NCBI GenBank assembly: GCA_947570625.1
Contig: CANOUP010000009.1
Location: 1-61,913, forward strand
Length of the DNA: 61,913 nucleotides
Reading direction: 5' to 3'
Source of the DNA: an uncultured Clostridia bacterium
GTDB taxonomy: Bacteria > Bacillota > Clostridia > Christensenellales > Borkfalkiaceae
Shown: positions 37,103 to 48,577 of the stretch, piece after piece
Layout: every line of letters begins with the position of its first letter
Position numbering within the stretch: the first letter of the stretch is position 1
The notes under the pieces: generated by a model
What the model was told of the DNA's origin: nothing
Database searches by the model: none
What the model saw: only the letters and a program-made list of their open reading frames with translations
Program-made: the position numbers and the translations under genes

Positions 37103-40057
37103 TTAAATACCGAAATGCTGGTAGTAAGTTGCAACCGACAGCCAGTAATTCTTATCGTAGCCGTCCTTGTCGCCTCTCCAATACAGTACGTCGGAAATAA
37201 TCTGAACAAGGTCCCAGCTCGCTTCCGTCATTCCGTAAAGCTCTTCGCCTTCGCTCTTGCCTTCAATCGAGCGGTTGTAATATTCCTTAATTTTATCGGT
37301 GTAATCGCGCTGACCGAACGGGCGGAGGTTGAACAAGCCGTCGTCAATCATCTTTTTAAGCGAGTGACCCATAATGTGGAAATAGTTCGCGTTTACGAAG
37401 TCGATATAAATGGGGGAACCGAATTCGTTGTTTTCGTGTGCGTAGAAGCAGTCTGAATCACTGTCGTAAGCAACGGGTATAGCGTCGTAAACATAGTCGA
37501 TAATCTGGTCGTTTTCGTCGGTGATGCCCACAAACGAACCGCTTATCGAACATACGCGAAGCCAGTCGTAGCTTTCTCCCATATACTTAATGGAGAAGTC
37601 GTATTTTCCTTCCGCGCCCGACATAAACTGACGGAGTTGGAGATAGATTGTTTCGCCTTTTTCGAGAGTAACGAACCCGTAGAAGTTGGCTAATTCTTCG
37701 TAATGGTTATACGAAAGTTCGTAACCGTTATCCTTGGGCGTAGCAACAATTTCGGATTTTTCCATGGCGTCGTACGAGAAGTTGTCGTCGATGATTGCAA
37801 AGTCTTCGTAGTCGCCGTTTCCGTCGGGTCTGTAAAGTATAACTTGGGGGTCGGTTTCGGTTTTGACGTCGTAGCGCGAACGCAGTTCGTATACGCCCGT
37901 TTGGGGAACTGTGAATTTATAGAAGATACCGCCTCCCGTGCCCATATTTGTCTTTTCGATATTTACGTGGTTGGGGAAGGGGTTTTCCGGGTCGTCAGTC
38001 TGAACCGCCGTAAACGCGTTCATGAAGAACATACCTTTTATGGGGTCGTCGTGTACGAAGCAGGGTTTCTTTACTTGCTGTTCGTTTCCGTCTTCGTCCT
38101 TGACGGTTTCCCAGTGTTCGTAATTTTCGCTGTTGTAGTGCTGGAAGAAATAGCACATTTCAACCCAGTCGCCGTCCTCCGATTCCTTCTGACATACGTA
38201 AGACTTGTTAAACTCTCTCATAAACGCTACGATTATGTTTTTAAGTCTTTCGGTAACGGGAAGCAGGAGGTTGTCTGAGAACTTCTGCAAATCGAGCATA
38301 TCGTTCAGGTAATCGGTGTCTTTTTTGGAGAGGTAGGTGTAAGCTATCGTTTCGTTATCTTCTTTGGTTTTGCGGTTGGACATCAGGAAATAGCTTATCC
38401 AGTAAACACAGCTGTAATAACTGCCTTCTTCGTCCTCGGGCGAGAACGAGTAAGAACCCGTGTGTTCGAACGACCAGGGGGTCTGGTCCTGCAATTCAAT
38501 CAGTAAAAGCGCGCCGTCGAATTCGGGGTTGCCGGTGTTGGCTATATGGTAGTAACCGTCATCGGGGTTGAGTACAACGTTGTCAACCGTAAGTCCTTCG
38601 TGGAATACCGAGTGCGCAACGTCAATGGCTTTGCCCGTATCCTTTGCGTTGACTACGGAAATGTTTTTGACCTTAACGAAATCGCCGTCGACGGGATTCT
38701 TTTTGGAATCGTAATACTTGATGTAGGTAAACGAAAGAGTAACGGGACCCGCCTTGTTTGCGATGTAGATGTTTTCCTGTTTCTGCCAGCCCTTCGAGTC
38801 GCCGCTTATCTGTAAAAGAGGAGTGGAACTGTCGGCAATGACGATGAAACGGTCGTAACTGTCAAGCGATTTAAGGTTATAATCGAAAGAAACCATATCG
38901 CCGAAATCGAGGTCGAGCGTAAGGTAGATTATCGAGTAAGAGGGGTCCTGACCCGAGTTCGACGCCGTCATATAGGTATAATCTTCGTCGTTTTCTACTA
39001 CCCACGGCCAGTTGTAAACTTTGTCTTTGTCGCTTGTTTCGGTTTCGAACTTAACGACTTTGTTTGTCGCGTCGGGGGCAATCTGCGAGGGCATCAGGTC
39101 ATAGTTGGGATGGGCAAGGTCTGCGGGAGGTTTGATGTTTTCCTTTACCTCCTCGTCGGGGTCCTCGTCGGGAGGGGTTATGTCCTGCACGTAGTTGTCG
39201 GAAGTAAATCTTGCAAACAGCGATTTCCATACTTCCGCGCTGGTCTGCGCGCCCGCGTCCCAGTACGCTACAACGCCGTATCTGTCGATTATTACCGTGG
39301 TCGGGAAGCCCGTGACGGAGAATTTGGATATCAGCCCTTCGTCGCGTCCCATTATGAAGGAGAAGCCCTTCTGCGCGGCATAGTTCTTAACCGCCGTTGC
39401 CGAGTCCTTGGAGGGGTCGGCGAGAGCGACGACCGCAATTCTGTCAGAGAAGGCTTCGTAAGCTTCGTTCAGCGCGGGGAACTCCACGTTGCAGGGTCCG
39501 CAGGACGTAAAGAAGAAGTTGAGCACAACCGCTTTGTACTGTCCGATAAGTTCTGTCAGCAGGTATTTTTCGTCCTTTACGTCGGTGACCGAAAATTCGT
39601 GGGCGATGTCGCCTAATTTATAAACTTTGTCGGAGCTCGCCGTCGATGAAATAACGCCCGACGGTATGTTTATAACAATCTCCTTGCTTGTGCCCGTCGT
39701 GTATTTGCTGTCGGGGAGGCGGTAGCCTTCGGGAAGCGACGACTCGACTATTTGGATTTCGTAGTCGTCGGGAGAGGTGTAAAGCACCATTTCTCCGTTT
39801 CTCGAAATTCCGCCGACCGCGCGTTCGCCGTTTTTAAGAAGGTTGACTTCGACGTTGCTAAGTCCGAGCCCGCCGAGCGAACGAACCTTTATCGTGTATC
39901 GGTTTTCGTCGTTCTGTTCTTCGCCGGGAAGGATCGTTCCGCCCGTGGGATTTTTGTAATTAGGATAATCGTCTTCGCAGGCGGAAAGGGCAAGTCCCGC
40001 ACATACGGTCATGCATACCGCAAGTATGCCGATAAGGATTTTTCTCAATTTACCCAT
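37103..40057 (-). CDS. 984-residue surface lipoprotein with TlpA thioredoxin domain
   Basis: Lipoprotein signal peptide with LSAC (Cys27). An N-terminal CNA-B-like domain (about 50-135) precedes a TlpA/AhpC-type thioredoxin fold (about 145-295) with the active-site CGPC (Cys186, Cys189) in FFFTSCGPCN and the cis-Pro loop VTGFPTTVIIDRYG. The remaining about 690 residues are not recognised: a linker rich in Pro, Asp and Glu, a carbohydrate-binding-like beta region (about 330-500), a helical region and another beta-sandwich-like stretch (GGIFYKFTVPQTGVYELRSR). TlpA domains reduce or oxidise extracytoplasmic thiols; the NapH-TlpA fusion gene ending convergently at 36568 is a natural electron donor. 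AAAGGAG site. Confidence 0.8.
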   Translation of the reverse strand: MGKLRKILIGILAVCMTVCAGLALSACEDDYPNYKNPTGGTILPGEEQNDENRYTIKVRSLGGLGLSNVEVNLLKNGERAVGGISRNGEMVLYTSPDDYEIQIVESSLPEGYRLPDSKYTTGTSKEIVINIPSGVISSTASSDKVYKLGDIAHEFSVTDVKDEKYLLTELIGQYKAVVLNFFFTSCGPCNVEFPALNEAYEAFSDRIAVVALADPSKDSATAVKNYAAQKGFSFIMGRDEGLISKFSVTGFPTTVIIDRYGVVAYWDAGAQTSAEVWKSLFARFTSDNYVQDITPPDEDPDEEVKENIKPPADLAHPNYDLMPSQIAPDATNKVVKFETETSDKDKVYNWPWVVENDEDYTYMTASNSGQDPSYSIIYLTLDLDFGDMVSFDYNLKSLDSYDRFIVIADSSTPLLQISGDSKGWQKQENIYIANKAGPVTLSFTYIKYYDSKKNPVDGDFVKVKNISVVNAKDTGKAIDVAHSVFHEGLTVDNVVLNPDDGYYHIANTGNPEFDGALLLIELQDQTPWSFEHTGSYSFSPEDEEGSYYSCVYWISYFLMSNRKTKEDNETIAYTYLSKKDTDYLNDMLDLQKFSDNLLLPVTERLKNIIVAFMREFNKSYVCQKESEDGDWVEMCYFFQHYNSENYEHWETVKDEDGNEQQVKKPCFVHDDPIKGMFFMNAFTAVQTDDPENPFPNHVNIEKTNMGTGGGIFYKFTVPQTGVYELRSRYDVKTETDPQVILYRPDGNGDYEDFAIIDDNFSYDAMEKSEIVATPKDNGYELSYNHYEELANFYGFVTLEKGETIYLQLRQFMSGAEGKYDFSIKYMGESYDWLRVCSISGSFVGITDENDQIIDYVYDAIPVAYDSDSDCFYAHENNEFGSPIYIDFVNANYFHIMGHSLKKMIDDGLFNLRPFGQRDYTDKIKEYYNRSIEGKSEGEELYGMTEASWDLVQIISDVLYWRGDKDGYDKNYWLSVATYYQHFGI

Positions 40058-44504: not shown

Positions 44505-45407
44505 TCACAGCACTTTGGATAAAAATTCTTTCAGACGTTCGTTTTTCGGACTGCCGAAAATATCGTCCGGCGCGCCCTCTTCCAGAATTTTGCCCCCGTC
44601 CATAAACATAACCCTCGTCGCGCATTCGCGGGCAAAAGCCATTTCGTGGGTTACGATTACCATTGTCATGCCCTCGTCGGCAAGCTCCTTTATCAGCCCG
44701 AGAACTTCGCCGACCATTTCGGGGTCGAGCGCGGAGGTAGGCTCGTCGAACAGCATTACCTCGGGGTTCATCATAAGCGAGCGCGCTATCGCAATGCGCT
44801 GTTTCTGTCCGCCCGACAGGGAGGAGGGGAAGGCGTACTTCTTGTCGGGCAGTCCTATCCTGTCGAGAAGCTTCAAAGCTTTTTCTTCCGCCTGTTCTTT
44901 GGTCATTATTTTAAGCTTTACGGGCGCGAAAACCATATTTTTCAGCACGTTCATATTATTGAAAAGGTTGAACTGCTGGAAAACCATACCCATGCTTCGG
45001 CGGGCGAGGTTTGCGTTTAAACGGTTTTCCTTTAAATACCGGCGTACGGCTGAATGGAATTCCGCGCCCTCGTGCTTTTTAAGCAAATCTTCTTTTTTTA
45101 TTTTGCTTATGACCTCGGCTTTCAGTTCTGCGTTTCCTGGTTCGGGGCACAGCTTTGCGAACGTTTTTGATTTTGCTATGATGTCGGGGTGGAGATAGGG
45201 GTCGACGGGGGTAAGGAGCCTGCCGTCAAGCCACACTTCGCCGTACTTGACCTGTTCGAGCAGGTTCATACATCTTAAAAGCGTCGACTTCCCGCTTCCC
45301 GAAGGACCGATAAGCGCGATTTTTTCGCCCTTTTCCACGTCGATGCTCACACCTTTCAGTACTTCGGTTTTATGGAAGTCCTTGAAAATGTTTTTAACGC
45401 TTATCAC
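44505..45407 (-). CDS. Polar amino-acid ABC importer ATPase with insertion
   Basis: 300 residues against about 245 usual for GlnQ/HisP-type ATPases. Walker A GPSGSGKS (34-41), Q-loop MVFQQFNLF (Gln144-145), signature LSGGQKQR, Walker [15 protein letters not shown], switch [11 protein letters not shown]. Residues about 64-130, between Walker A and the Q-loop, are an extra segment of about 60 residues with a [17 protein letters not shown] start and a long basic helix ([19 protein letters not shown]). It powers import by the permease whose gene overlaps it by 14 bp. The insertion is not a frameshift, as the reading frame is clean. Confidence 0.92.
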
Positions 45408-46080
45408 GGTTGAGCCTCCTTTCTATCAGGCGTATAACGACGGTGATTATCATTACCATAACGAAATAGATTAGCGCGAGCGCGACGTACGGAATAAAGT
45501 ATTCGAACGTGGAGTCGGCAATGGCTTTGAACGACCGCGTAAGGTCGGCAAGCCCGATTACGCTTACAATCGACGTTTCTTTCAGGAGCGAAATAAACTC
45601 GTTTCCTATCGTGGGCAGAATATTTTTTATCGCCTGCGGGAGAACGATTTTAAGCATTACGGCGGTAAACCCCAGCCCGAGCGCGCGCCCCGCTTCCGTC
45701 TGTCCCCTGTCCACGGCGTTTATGCCGCTCCTTATAATTTCCGCCATATACGCGCCGCTGTTTAGCCCGAAAATAAGCGAAACCTCGGCAACGGGCGCAA
45801 TCTTCACGCCTATGAACACGGCGAAGTGCAGGAGCAGAAGCTGTACCATCATCGGCGTTCCGCGGAATACGGCGATATAGCCGTCCGCGAGATATTGCAG
45901 TCCTTTGACGGCGGGATTTTTGGACTGTATTATTTTAACGGTTGCAAGCAGACAGCCGATTACAAACCCGAGAAGCAGACCGAACACGGCGATGACCGCC
46001 GTGTTCTGCAATCCTGTGAGTATGCTATTTATCGTTCCCGGGTTTTTTACCCTGTTCCAGAAAATCTGCCAGCTGTTCAT
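45394..46080 (-). CDS. Polar amino-acid ABC importer permease
   Basis: 228 residues, HisM/GlnP type, about five helices. Typical signature pieces are [38 protein letters not shown] and the EAA loop [20 protein letters not shown] followed by [20 protein letters not shown]. It presumably works as a homodimer, since there is only one permease gene. It overlaps the binding-protein gene by 4 bp (ATGA-type) and the ATPase gene by 14 bp, so the three are tightly coupled. Confidence 0.95.
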
Positions 46081-46925
46081 TTGTTGATACTTTCCGCAAT
46101 CATAAGCGAGGGCTGTTTGTCGAGTATGACCGCGTTTATTTTTCCGTTTTTAAGGTCCATCATCGCAAGCGCGCCCGTGTCGTACGCTTTGGTCGTAAGG
46201 TTAGTAAAGCCCGTATAGCCGAAACCTTCGTCGCCGTTGGAATACATAAAGCCCGTGGTTCCCGCCTGCGTGCCTACCGTATAATTTTTGTCCTGCGCTT
46301 TGAGCTTTGCTTCCGCTTCCTCGACCGTCGTACAGCCGTCGAAAGTCGTGTCGTCCTCGCGGACGGTGATTACCTGCGCCGACTCGTAGTAACCTATCGC
46401 AAAATCTACGTCCTTTTTGCGCTCTTCGTTTACGGTGATTCCCGCCATGCCTATATGGCATTCGCCCGCTTTAATGCTGGGTATGATTGCGTCGAAATTC
46501 ATATCCTTGACGTACAGCGTCTTGCCGAGTTTCTGCGCGATATTGTAAGCGATTTCTATATCCGCGCCCGCAAACTCGCTGTTGTCGTTATAGTATTCGA
46601 AGGGCGGGAAGTAGGCGTTTGTCGCGACGACGAAGTCGCCTTCCTGCGGGGAGGAAGTTTTGTTCGAATAACTGAACTCCGCCTTTCCGTCGAAATACGA
46701 ATTAATGAGATTGTTTAGCGAGCCGTCGTCCTTCCACTCGGTAAGGTATGTATTGACCTGCGCAAGCAGTTCTTTTGCGTCCTTTGCCACGGCGAAGGCG
46801 TACTCCTCGGAAGTGAGTTCTATGTCCTTGACGGAAACCTTAACCGCCCCCGAACATCCCATAGCCCCGAGCGCGGTAACCGCCGTTCCGGCAACGGCAA
46901 GCGCCGTCAATAAAAGTTTTTTCAT
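46077..46925 (-). CDS. Amino-acid-binding lipoprotein, circularly permuted
   Basis: 282 residues from ATG 46925 (site GAGAGG 9 nt upstream; the TTG seven codons earlier contains that site). Lipoprotein signal with Cys24. Family-3 binding protein, but in changed order: residues about 28-78 (VKDIELTSEEYAFAVAKDAK, then a helix ending in GSLNNLINSYF) correspond to the C-terminal end of normal family members such as GlnH. A linker (79-96) follows, then the usual N-terminal start GDFVVATNAYFPPFEYY, and the protein stops at [19 protein letters not shown], where others continue. First gene of the three-gene importer. Confidence 0.9.
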   Translation of the reverse strand: MKKLLLTALAVAGTAVTALGAMGCSGAVKVSVKDIELTSEEYAFAVAKDAKELLAQVNTYLTEWKDDGSLNNLINSYFDGKAEFSYSNKTSSPQEGDFVVATNAYFPPFEYYNDNSEFAGADIEIAYNIAQKLGKTLYVKDMNFDAIIPSIKAGECHIGMAGITVNEERKKDVDFAIGYYESAQVITVREDDTTFDGCTTVEEAEAKLKAQDKNYTVGTQAGTTGFMYSNGDEGFGYTGFTNLTTKAYDTGALAMMDLKNGKINAVILDKQPSLMIAESINK

Positions 46926-47242: not shown

Positions 47243-48577
47243 ATGAGAATTCAGTTATCGGACCGTTTCGATTATAAAAAATTGCTTATTTTCGTCCTGC
47301 CCTCGATTGTGATGATGGTTTTCACCAACGTCTACACGGTCGTGGACGGTCTTTTCGTGTCTAATTTCGCGGGCAAAGAAGCCGTTGCGGCGATTAACAG
47401 AATATTTCCGCTTATAATTATTATGGGTTCGCTCGGCTTTATGCTGGGCGCGGGCGGAAGCGCGCTGATATCCAAAACTCTGGGCGAAGGCGACAGGGAG
47501 AGGGCTAACGCGTACTTTTCCCTTCTCGTATACGTCACGCTGGGCATAGGCATTTTCATTGCCGTCGTCGGACAGTTTGCCGTTCCGTCCGTTGCAAGAC
47601 TGCTGGGCGCGACGGGCAAAACGTACGACTACTGCGTGCTTTACGGCAGGTGGCTTTTGGCGGGTCAGCCCTTTTTCATATTACAGAATATTTTTCAAAG
47701 CTTTTTCGTAACCGCCGAAAAACCCAGACTCGGGCTTGCGGTTACTGTTTTGGCGGGCGTGACGAATATGGCGCTCGACGCGCTCTTCGTCGCAGGCTTA
47801 AAATGGGGGCTTACGGGCGCGGCCGCGGCGACGGTTGCAAGCCAGGTCATAGGCGGAGCGTTCCCGATAATCTATTTCGCTTGCAGAAACAACAGCCTTC
47901 TGCGCCTTACAACGACAAAATTTTACGGCAGAGCGCTGGCGCGTTCGTTTATGAACGGCTCGTCTGAATTTCTGTCAAACGTTTCCGCTTCGGTTGTCAC
48001 CGTATTATATAATTTCCAGCTGGATAAGTATGCGGGAGGGGATACCGGCGTCGCCGCGTACGGCATAATAATGTACGTCGTAATCGTGTTCTACGCGTTT
48101 TTTATGGGTTATGCCGTAGGAAGCGCCCCGCTTATCGGTTACAATTACGGCGCGGACAACAAGGCGGAACTTAAAAACCTGTTCAAAAAAGGGCTTGTAA
48201 TAACTACTGTTTTCGGGGTTTTGATGACTGCGTCCGCCGAGGCTTTGGCTTATCCGCTTTGTAAAATGTTCGTAAGCTACGACGCGGATTTGCTGGCTAT
48301 GACGCTGAACGGGTACAGGATTTATTCGATAGCCTTCCTTATCACCGGTTACGGAGTGTTCGGTTCTTCGCTGTTTACCGCCCTCAACAACGGCGCGGTG
48401 TCTGCGCTTATTTCGTTTTTGCGCACGCTCGTGTATCAGCTTGTTGCGGTAACGGTTATACCGCTTTGGCTGGGGCTGAACGGAATATGGGCTTCAATCA
48501 TATTTTCCGAATTTGCGTCCGCGGTTACGGCGGCGGTGTTCATAATAATCTACCGCAAAAAGTACGGTTATTGCTGA
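47243..48577 (+). CDS. MATE-family cation-coupled efflux pump (MepA-like)
   Basis: 444 residues with twelve membrane helices in two halves. Family pieces: PSIVMMVFTNVYTVVDGLFV, NRIFPLIIIMGSLGFMLGAG, GGSALISKTLGEGDRERAN, ILQNIFQSFFVTAEKP. MATE pumps of the MepA branch expel cationic compounds in exchange for Na+ or H+. The start ATG follows a terminator-type hairpin; no normal ribosome site is visible (TTTATCTT), so translation may rely on the released RNA. If the leader is a guanidine riboswitch, the physiological cargo is likely guanidinium. Confidence 0.93.
   Translation: MRIQLSDRFDYKKLLIFVLPSIVMMVFTNVYTVVDGLFVSNFAGKEAVAAINRIFPLIIIMGSLGFMLGAGGSALISKTLGEGDRERANAYFSLLVYVTLGIGIFIAVVGQFAVPSVARLLGATGKTYDYCVLYGRWLLAGQPFFILQNIFQSFFVTAEKPRLGLAVTVLAGVTNMALDALFVAGLKWGLTGAAAATVASQVIGGAFPIIYFACRNNSLLRLTTTKFYGRALARSFMNGSSEFLSNVSASVVTVLYNFQLDKYAGGDTGVAAYGIIMYVVIVFYAFFMGYAVGSAPLIGYNYGADNKAELKNLFKKGLVITTVFGVLMTASAEALAYPLCKMFVSYDADLLAMTLNGYRIYSIAFLITGYGVFGSSLFTALNNGAVSALISFLRTLVYQLVAVTVIPLWLGLNGIWASIIFSEFASAVTAAVFIIIYRKKYGYC

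Follow-up and report, generated by a model that had tools for sequence, protein, structure and literature searches.

The window analysed here, a 61,913-nucleotide stretch of DNA from an uncultured Clostridia bacterium, carries on its minus strand an open reading frame (46077–46925) for a 282-aa family-3 amino-acid-binding lipoprotein, in which the segment that usually ends the chain appears to stand at its start. Is this protein a circular permutant of the GlnH type, as the initial annotation had proposed, or a conventional protein with an added N-terminal domain, and do its relatives share the unusual order?

Order of segments in the window lipoprotein

The ATG of the gene has AGAGG upstream, and the first 23 residues have the look of a signal peptide. 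They lead to a putative lipidation cysteine, C24 (46854–46925 together with the signal peptide, minus strand), which is preceded by A-M-G and kept in at least 90% of alignment A1; we take A-M-G-C to be an imperfect lipobox. Behind it lies the moved segment, residues 28–78 (46692–46844, minus strand), equivalent to the closing strand and helix of a conventional protein, followed by a linker, residues 79–97 (46635–46691, minus strand), and by residues 98–282 (46080–46634, minus strand), which run from the conventional start up to where the last segment would begin. We refer to this order as class A.

Pfam places the protein in SBP_bac_3 (PF00497) with 106.7 bits against a cut-off of 26.4, and its best stretch covers residues 99–201 only. 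The profile is not matched in the usual order: positions 97–131 (20.2 bits, below the cut-off) lie N-terminal of positions 2–98 (90 bits). Taken by itself, this picture would fit a protein whose N-terminal segment is an extra domain and whose usual C-terminal helices have been lost. In a phmmer search against the PDB, window residues 95–275 align with residues 9–173 of the conventional protein 4zv1 (88.8 bits), and residues 36–78 align with its C-terminal residues 189–231, a match that is weak alone (13.0 bits, i-Evalue 0.53). The top match is the tandem-domain chain 6h30, to which window residues 41–274 aligned straight across the domain junction. Along a profile built from 33 conventional proteins, on which the order was read, residues 32–80 match positions 204–253 (43 bits) and residues 91–279 match positions 25–198 (186 bits), and once the mature chain is rotated its best score is 240 bits instead of 186; conventional proteins gain 0–4 bits by the same operation (36/36, most of them members of the profile). 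For a shuffle control, a profile of 30 conventional proteins was used, with L096, L014 and L018 left out. Residues 25–97 score 44.0 bits against its C-terminal end (positions 197–246), and the best score among shuffles of this N-terminal stretch is 6.8 bits (2000 made, 1809 scored).

A direct comparison is offered by L096, a conventionally ordered relative of 279 aa from another family of the same order (genome G176). Window residues 100–281 correspond to L096 residues 35–215 at 71.4% identity (E 7e-92), and the 61 residues 28–88 correspond to L096 residues 217–276 at 55.7% identity (E 5e-19). Window residue 281 pairs with L096 residue 215 and window residue 28 with L096 residue 217; the chain stops, as had been claimed, where the permuted segment would otherwise start. 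The assignment of residues 28–78 to the usual terminal segment was likewise right, with homology to L096 extending to residue 88, into the linker. After rotation, identity to the window protein amounts to 66%, 50% and 47% for the conventional relatives L096, L171 and L014, respectively; same-genus class A relatives reach 63–74%, much like rotated L096. Both pieces are homologous to a conventional chain, their order is swapped, little is missing, and rotation gives one continuous match. Because the moved segment is homologous to the usual C-terminus and is missing from there, the extra-domain reading is very improbable, and the alignments indicate that the window protein is a true circular permutation, as first proposed. 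Chain-order changes of this kind can go unseen in a domain table.

Relatives, chain-order classes and cut points

Relatives were sought in a genome-contig scan (38 loci), and further loci came from samples that overlap in part: 61 relatives and 297, 341 and 199 genomes at the level of order, class and phylum, respectively. Loci were read in sets of 169 (E. coli controls included), 20 (one a 10-base slip) and 21 (six of them longer extracts from known places or their vicinity). The 173 distinct proteins classified, apart from 20 ORFs skipped as multi-domain, truncated or long, comprise 85 of class A (the window's included), 46 conventional, 19 of class B, 15 of class C, 7 permease-fused class B and 1 of class D. 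Later loci add class E (L201), two further class B (L202, L210), one class A (L204) and five class C (L205–L209); the named relatives are mostly Clostridia. Rotation gains 27–58 bits in 80/80 class A proteins, 94–142 bits in 19/19 of class B and 67–117 bits in 15/15 of class C, and raises class D from 172 to 196 bits and class E from 144 to 226 bits. Counting loci that were read, the order sample has class A in at least 34, class C in at least 20 and class D in at least one of its 297 genomes, and the class sample has class A in at least 35 and class B in at least 16 of its 341 genomes (L156 and L165 included, the 7 fused forms not); since the searches started from a class A query or profile, these figures are not a census. 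The phylum sample (199 genomes) adds, among junction-crossing matches read besides the window, one class B, one class E and one half-whole-half fusion. The initial annotation had suggested a search for homologues of the same order, and it did not foresee that permutation is widespread among the relatives, recurrent and of several kinds.

The window genome is a metagenome-assembled genome of 1.72 Mb from a gut bacterium, and its 38 contigs and completeness of 91.88% might raise the suspicion that the order results from faulty assembly or binning. However, the same order is found in all 85 distinct class A proteins, two of which come from single-contig genomes, G516 (L122) and G544 (L123), so that it is not an assembly fault; moreover, the genes around the operon are the same in three genomes of the genus (G004, G008 and G229), all permuted. 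An artefact is virtually out of the question.

Class D is represented by one protein (L170:1545–2594), cut between the first strand and the first helix, and class E by one protein (L201:1496–2299) from a genome outside the window's class. Class B halves also occur in one chain with a permease, in the order half, half, permease (L019, L024, L026, L156, L165 and L182). Longer chains consist of a half, one or two whole domains, a half and a permease (L025, L028, L032, L034, L035, L181 and L203). In both kinds of class B fusion the permease is thereby attached at the cut in the small lobe. L029 and L180 read half, whole, half in a stretch that ends before any permease. One of the skipped ORFs, L089, is a class A protein fused to a permease; fusion to a permease at the small-lobe cut is found in two classes, A and B.

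In mature GlnH numbering, the cuts fall at about 171–173 (A), 97–98 (B), 107–109 (C), 19–24 (D) and 129–130 (E). The small domain of GlnH is given as residues 90–180 and the large domain as residues 5–84 and 186–224 (PMC13229503). Cuts A, B, C and E lie within 90–180, which would place the chain ends in the small lobe, and cut D leaves them in the large lobe. In the LAO-binding protein, which has the conventional order, both ends are described as lying on the N-terminal domain (PMC5087393). The early claim of a shifted membrane anchor agrees with the new ends at GlnH residues ~171–173, within the small domain, so that the anchor would have passed from the large to the small lobe. Among conventional proteins, indel density at cuts A, B, C and D stands at the 81st, 95th, 69th and 90th percentile, respectively, which is suggestive only. 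The class B cut presumably coincides with the pore insertion point of glutamate receptors.

Broken genes were also considered as candidates: 19 listed matches of the order search had an in-frame stop, of which 17 are class C genes with the match running to the gene end, and the other two are a class B gene (G126) and a pair of adjacent conventional genes (G328). In L005:2583–4310, the reading frame of a class A protein stays open well beyond its likely start on the upstream side, which is probably a chance effect.

Order changes on the trees and a route by duplication

Trees were built from 82 rotated binding proteins, with 37 of 119 rows (distant or divergent, some of them permuted) left out, and from 80 neighbouring permeases, which are untouched by rotation; half-whole-half permease fusions were kept out of the trees. 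The binding-protein tree has 15 order changes (13–16 over 200 bootstrap trees, with the bootstrap not quite settled), and at least 10 when only branches with 95/80 support are used. It rejects all class A proteins as one clade (p 9e-45) and all permuted proteins as one clade (p 4e-30). Approximately unbiased (AU) tests do not reject that class C arose once (p 0.09), that the seven window-group class A rows form a single clade (p 0.27) or that L119, L145 and L166 make up one class A clade (p 0.25); since a single class A origin is not rejected there, the window group alone need not show recurrence. On the permease tree, 14 order changes are counted and class A forms one clade in 0/200 bootstrap trees; the AU test of a class A clade gives p 0.171 with a log-likelihood 357 lower, two figures that are mutually inconsistent and were not relied on.

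Ranked by score, the permeases closest to that of the window are those of eight class A operons (same genus and family), followed by those of conventional L171, of fused class A L089 and of conventional L096. By sequence, the window protein and its conventional relatives are of the same operon lineage, which the permease tree also shows. Conventional L096 and L171 stand inside class A on the permease tree (98/93), suggesting a return to the old order; their place on the binding-protein tree is unsure (88/22). The binding-protein tree nests class D within class A (set support 96/94).

The counts might be explained differently, by a few old permutations followed by gene conversion between permuted and conventional paralogues, with trees that exaggerate the number of events. 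Conversion of this kind could inflate counts of order change, and it would account for conventional and permuted rows being mixed in the trees, for the single origins that are not rejected for class C, the window group and L119/L145/L166, and for the AU value of the permease tree. However, the permease trees mix the labels alike, with their 14 changes and no bootstrap tree that unites class A, the class A clade is rejected on the binding-protein tree, and cut points differ between classes; gene conversion as the main explanation therefore seems rather unlikely to us. Repeated permutation is the preferred reading, and it seems to have happened many times in these bacteria, at several cut points. 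A fuller account is possible and is put forward tentatively: family-3 proteins of Clostridia may have been re-cut repeatedly, with at least five cuts, at least ten changes, at least one probable reversal and class D arising from class A, the driver being selection on the tethered lobe and the raw material tandem copies.

In permutation by duplication, as described, the end of one copy is fused to the start of the next (PMC3320104). The most likely origin of the window protein would be of this kind, two head-to-tail gene copies having fused and their outer parts having been trimmed, and a two-copy fusion implies that the linker still carries the old C-terminal tail. L096 ends INSFFDGTADYTYTNPAR and L171 ends INSFFDGTATFTYTNP; the window protein reads INSYFDGKAEFSYSNKTSS at that place and then continues, the first ten residues of its linker matching the C-terminal tail of both. 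The linker region reads INSYFDGKAEFSYSNKTSSPQEGDFVVATN in the window protein and INSFFDGSATFEYTNPASKDGCLVVATN in the class A relative L082. The window linker, as aligned, is partly the old C-terminal tail. Adjacent conventional copies do exist (L056 with L027; L189), and the tandem domains of GlnPQ (6h30) show the kind of starting point that permutation by duplication would need, although, unlike the window protein, they are two complete conventional domains and are not permuted. Half-way forms with a repeated end, which the duplication model predicts, were found in none of the 191 matching ORFs of up to 360 aa; at least 10 profile positions are covered twice only in L136 (10) and L179 (22), in both of which the match runs into the signal peptide.

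Operon, function and known permuted binding proteins

The binding-protein gene heads an operon, with permease and ATPase genes downstream. Its stop is overlapped (AAATGAAC) by the ATG of the permease gene (45394–46080, minus strand; BPD_transp_1, 79.6 bits), and the ABC ATPase gene lies at 44505–45407 on the same strand (ABC_tran, 114.2 bits). Because one SBP_bac_3 protein was found in the window genome and a second BPD_transp_1 permease of this kind was not found there at E up to 0.001, the binding protein and the adjacent permease are probably partners. A permease is encoded next downstream in 82/85 class A, 18/19 class B, 14/15 class C, 1/1 class D and 37/46 conventional cases. The column of GlnH R75 holds Arg in 173/173 proteins, and that of D157 holds Asp in all 120 single-domain permuted proteins (A 85/85, B 19/19, C 15/15, D 1/1), in 43/46 conventional and in 5/7 fused class B proteins; we take these columns to be the ligand contacts that hold the carboxylate and the amine of the amino acid. 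As the ligand columns are kept and the permease gene is next downstream, these proteins very probably belong to working importers. Four same-genus orthologues keep 62–74% of the moved-segment residues; only amino-acid conservation was used, because dS was saturated and not computable in 13/16 comparisons.

Some features of the surroundings are recorded here in their own right. The window ATPase has 300 aa with an extra charged stretch, and ATPases are also long in some relatives whose binding proteins are conventional (307 aa in L190, 325 aa in L193). Relative to the operon, a MatE-family transporter gene (47243–48577 in the window) has changed sides between the window and G008 (L194), a small local rearrangement. 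The ORF at 37103–40057 encodes a 984-aa probable lipoprotein with an AhpC-TSA/thioredoxin-like domain at residues 149–265 and no other Pfam match at E up to 0.01. When the window was scanned with Rfam at the gathering threshold, only a tRNA came up.

Taken together, the window gene almost certainly codes for the substrate-binding lipoprotein of an ABC importer for polar amino acids, its chain having a circularly permuted GlnH-type order. Its last strand and helices now lead the chain, a linker of ~19 residues (79–97) connects them to the old start, and the end lies where the moved piece began; the protein would adopt the usual two-lobe fold. An amino acid would be bound between the lobes by the conserved Arg169 and Asp269 and handed to the adjacent permease. 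The large lobe would now be one continuous stretch, both chain ends and the lipid anchor would lie on the small lobe, and the position of the anchor may change docking on the permease. A linker of this length would also allow the moved segment to complete a neighbouring molecule, in a domain-swapped dimer, and not its own chain. An engineered permuted LAO-binding protein works, however, with the 12 residues of (GGS)4 between the old ends (PMC5087393), so that a within-chain link should be long enough here; a swap is improbable, and we favour completion of the lobe by its own chain.

Almost the entire mature chain of the window protein is homologous to GlnH, HisJ and ArtJ (SBP_bac_3, PF00497; type II, cluster F), with the ligand residues kept, and an operon with permease and ATPase is common to both. 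In contrast to these proteins, the window chain is rotated, with its ends and lipid anchor predicted on the small lobe and not on the large one. TpMglB-2 (Tp0684) and its relatives are described as a natural circular permutation, for which the name 'Type Ic/Cluster Bc' was proposed (PMC4990184). Like the window protein, TpMglB-2 is a permuted lipoprotein that binds substrate for an ABC importer, and relatives of it also occur in Gram-positive gut bacteria, but it has a type I sugar-binding fold and belongs to another family with another cut (PMC4990184). Pfam and NCBIfam matches of the window protein are to family 3 and related type II families, with none to type I sugar-binding families, which places it outside 'Type Ic'. 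From structures, CPSARST is reported to have detected circular permutation among glycine-betaine-binding proteins (OpuAC and ProX, by the reference list of that report), molybdate-binding proteins and CysB (PMC2395249). These share the type II fold with the window protein but are of another family, and since any pair is less than 24% identical (PMC2395249), their permutations are probably old. An engineered permuted sensor from LAO-binding protein, which is also of family 3, is reported still to bind lysine, with a Kd of 107 µM for the prototype versus a quoted 3 µM for the native protein and 2.5 µM with another linker; its authors ascribe the weaker binding to the permutation and the fused fluorescent proteins (PMC5087393). 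Permutation therefore appears to be tolerated and may cost affinity, although these sensors, unlike the window protein, are man-made and cut at the hinge (PMC5087393). Among the matches listed from the open-licence literature, no naturally permuted family-3 binding protein was recognised, and no single-domain permuted family-3 chain was seen among the 60 PDB sequences listed of the 256, 435 and 118 matched for classes A, B and C, respectively. The terms ABC, periplasmic and solute were not found in the CIRPIN preprint.

The wider finding is that permutation recurs within a single family of proteins. In the published cases considered here, natural binding-protein permutations concern distant pairs (less than 24% identity) or proteins whose moved part is poorly conserved (PMC2395249, PMC4990184); here, conventional and permuted forms of one protein are up to 66–67% identical. 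With this high identity, the shared operon lineage and five cuts, the steps, direction and cost of permutation become directly testable. The family also offers a natural experiment on whether the choice of the membrane-tethered lobe matters to a binding protein, and a natural test bed in which the evolution and docking of these proteins can be studied.
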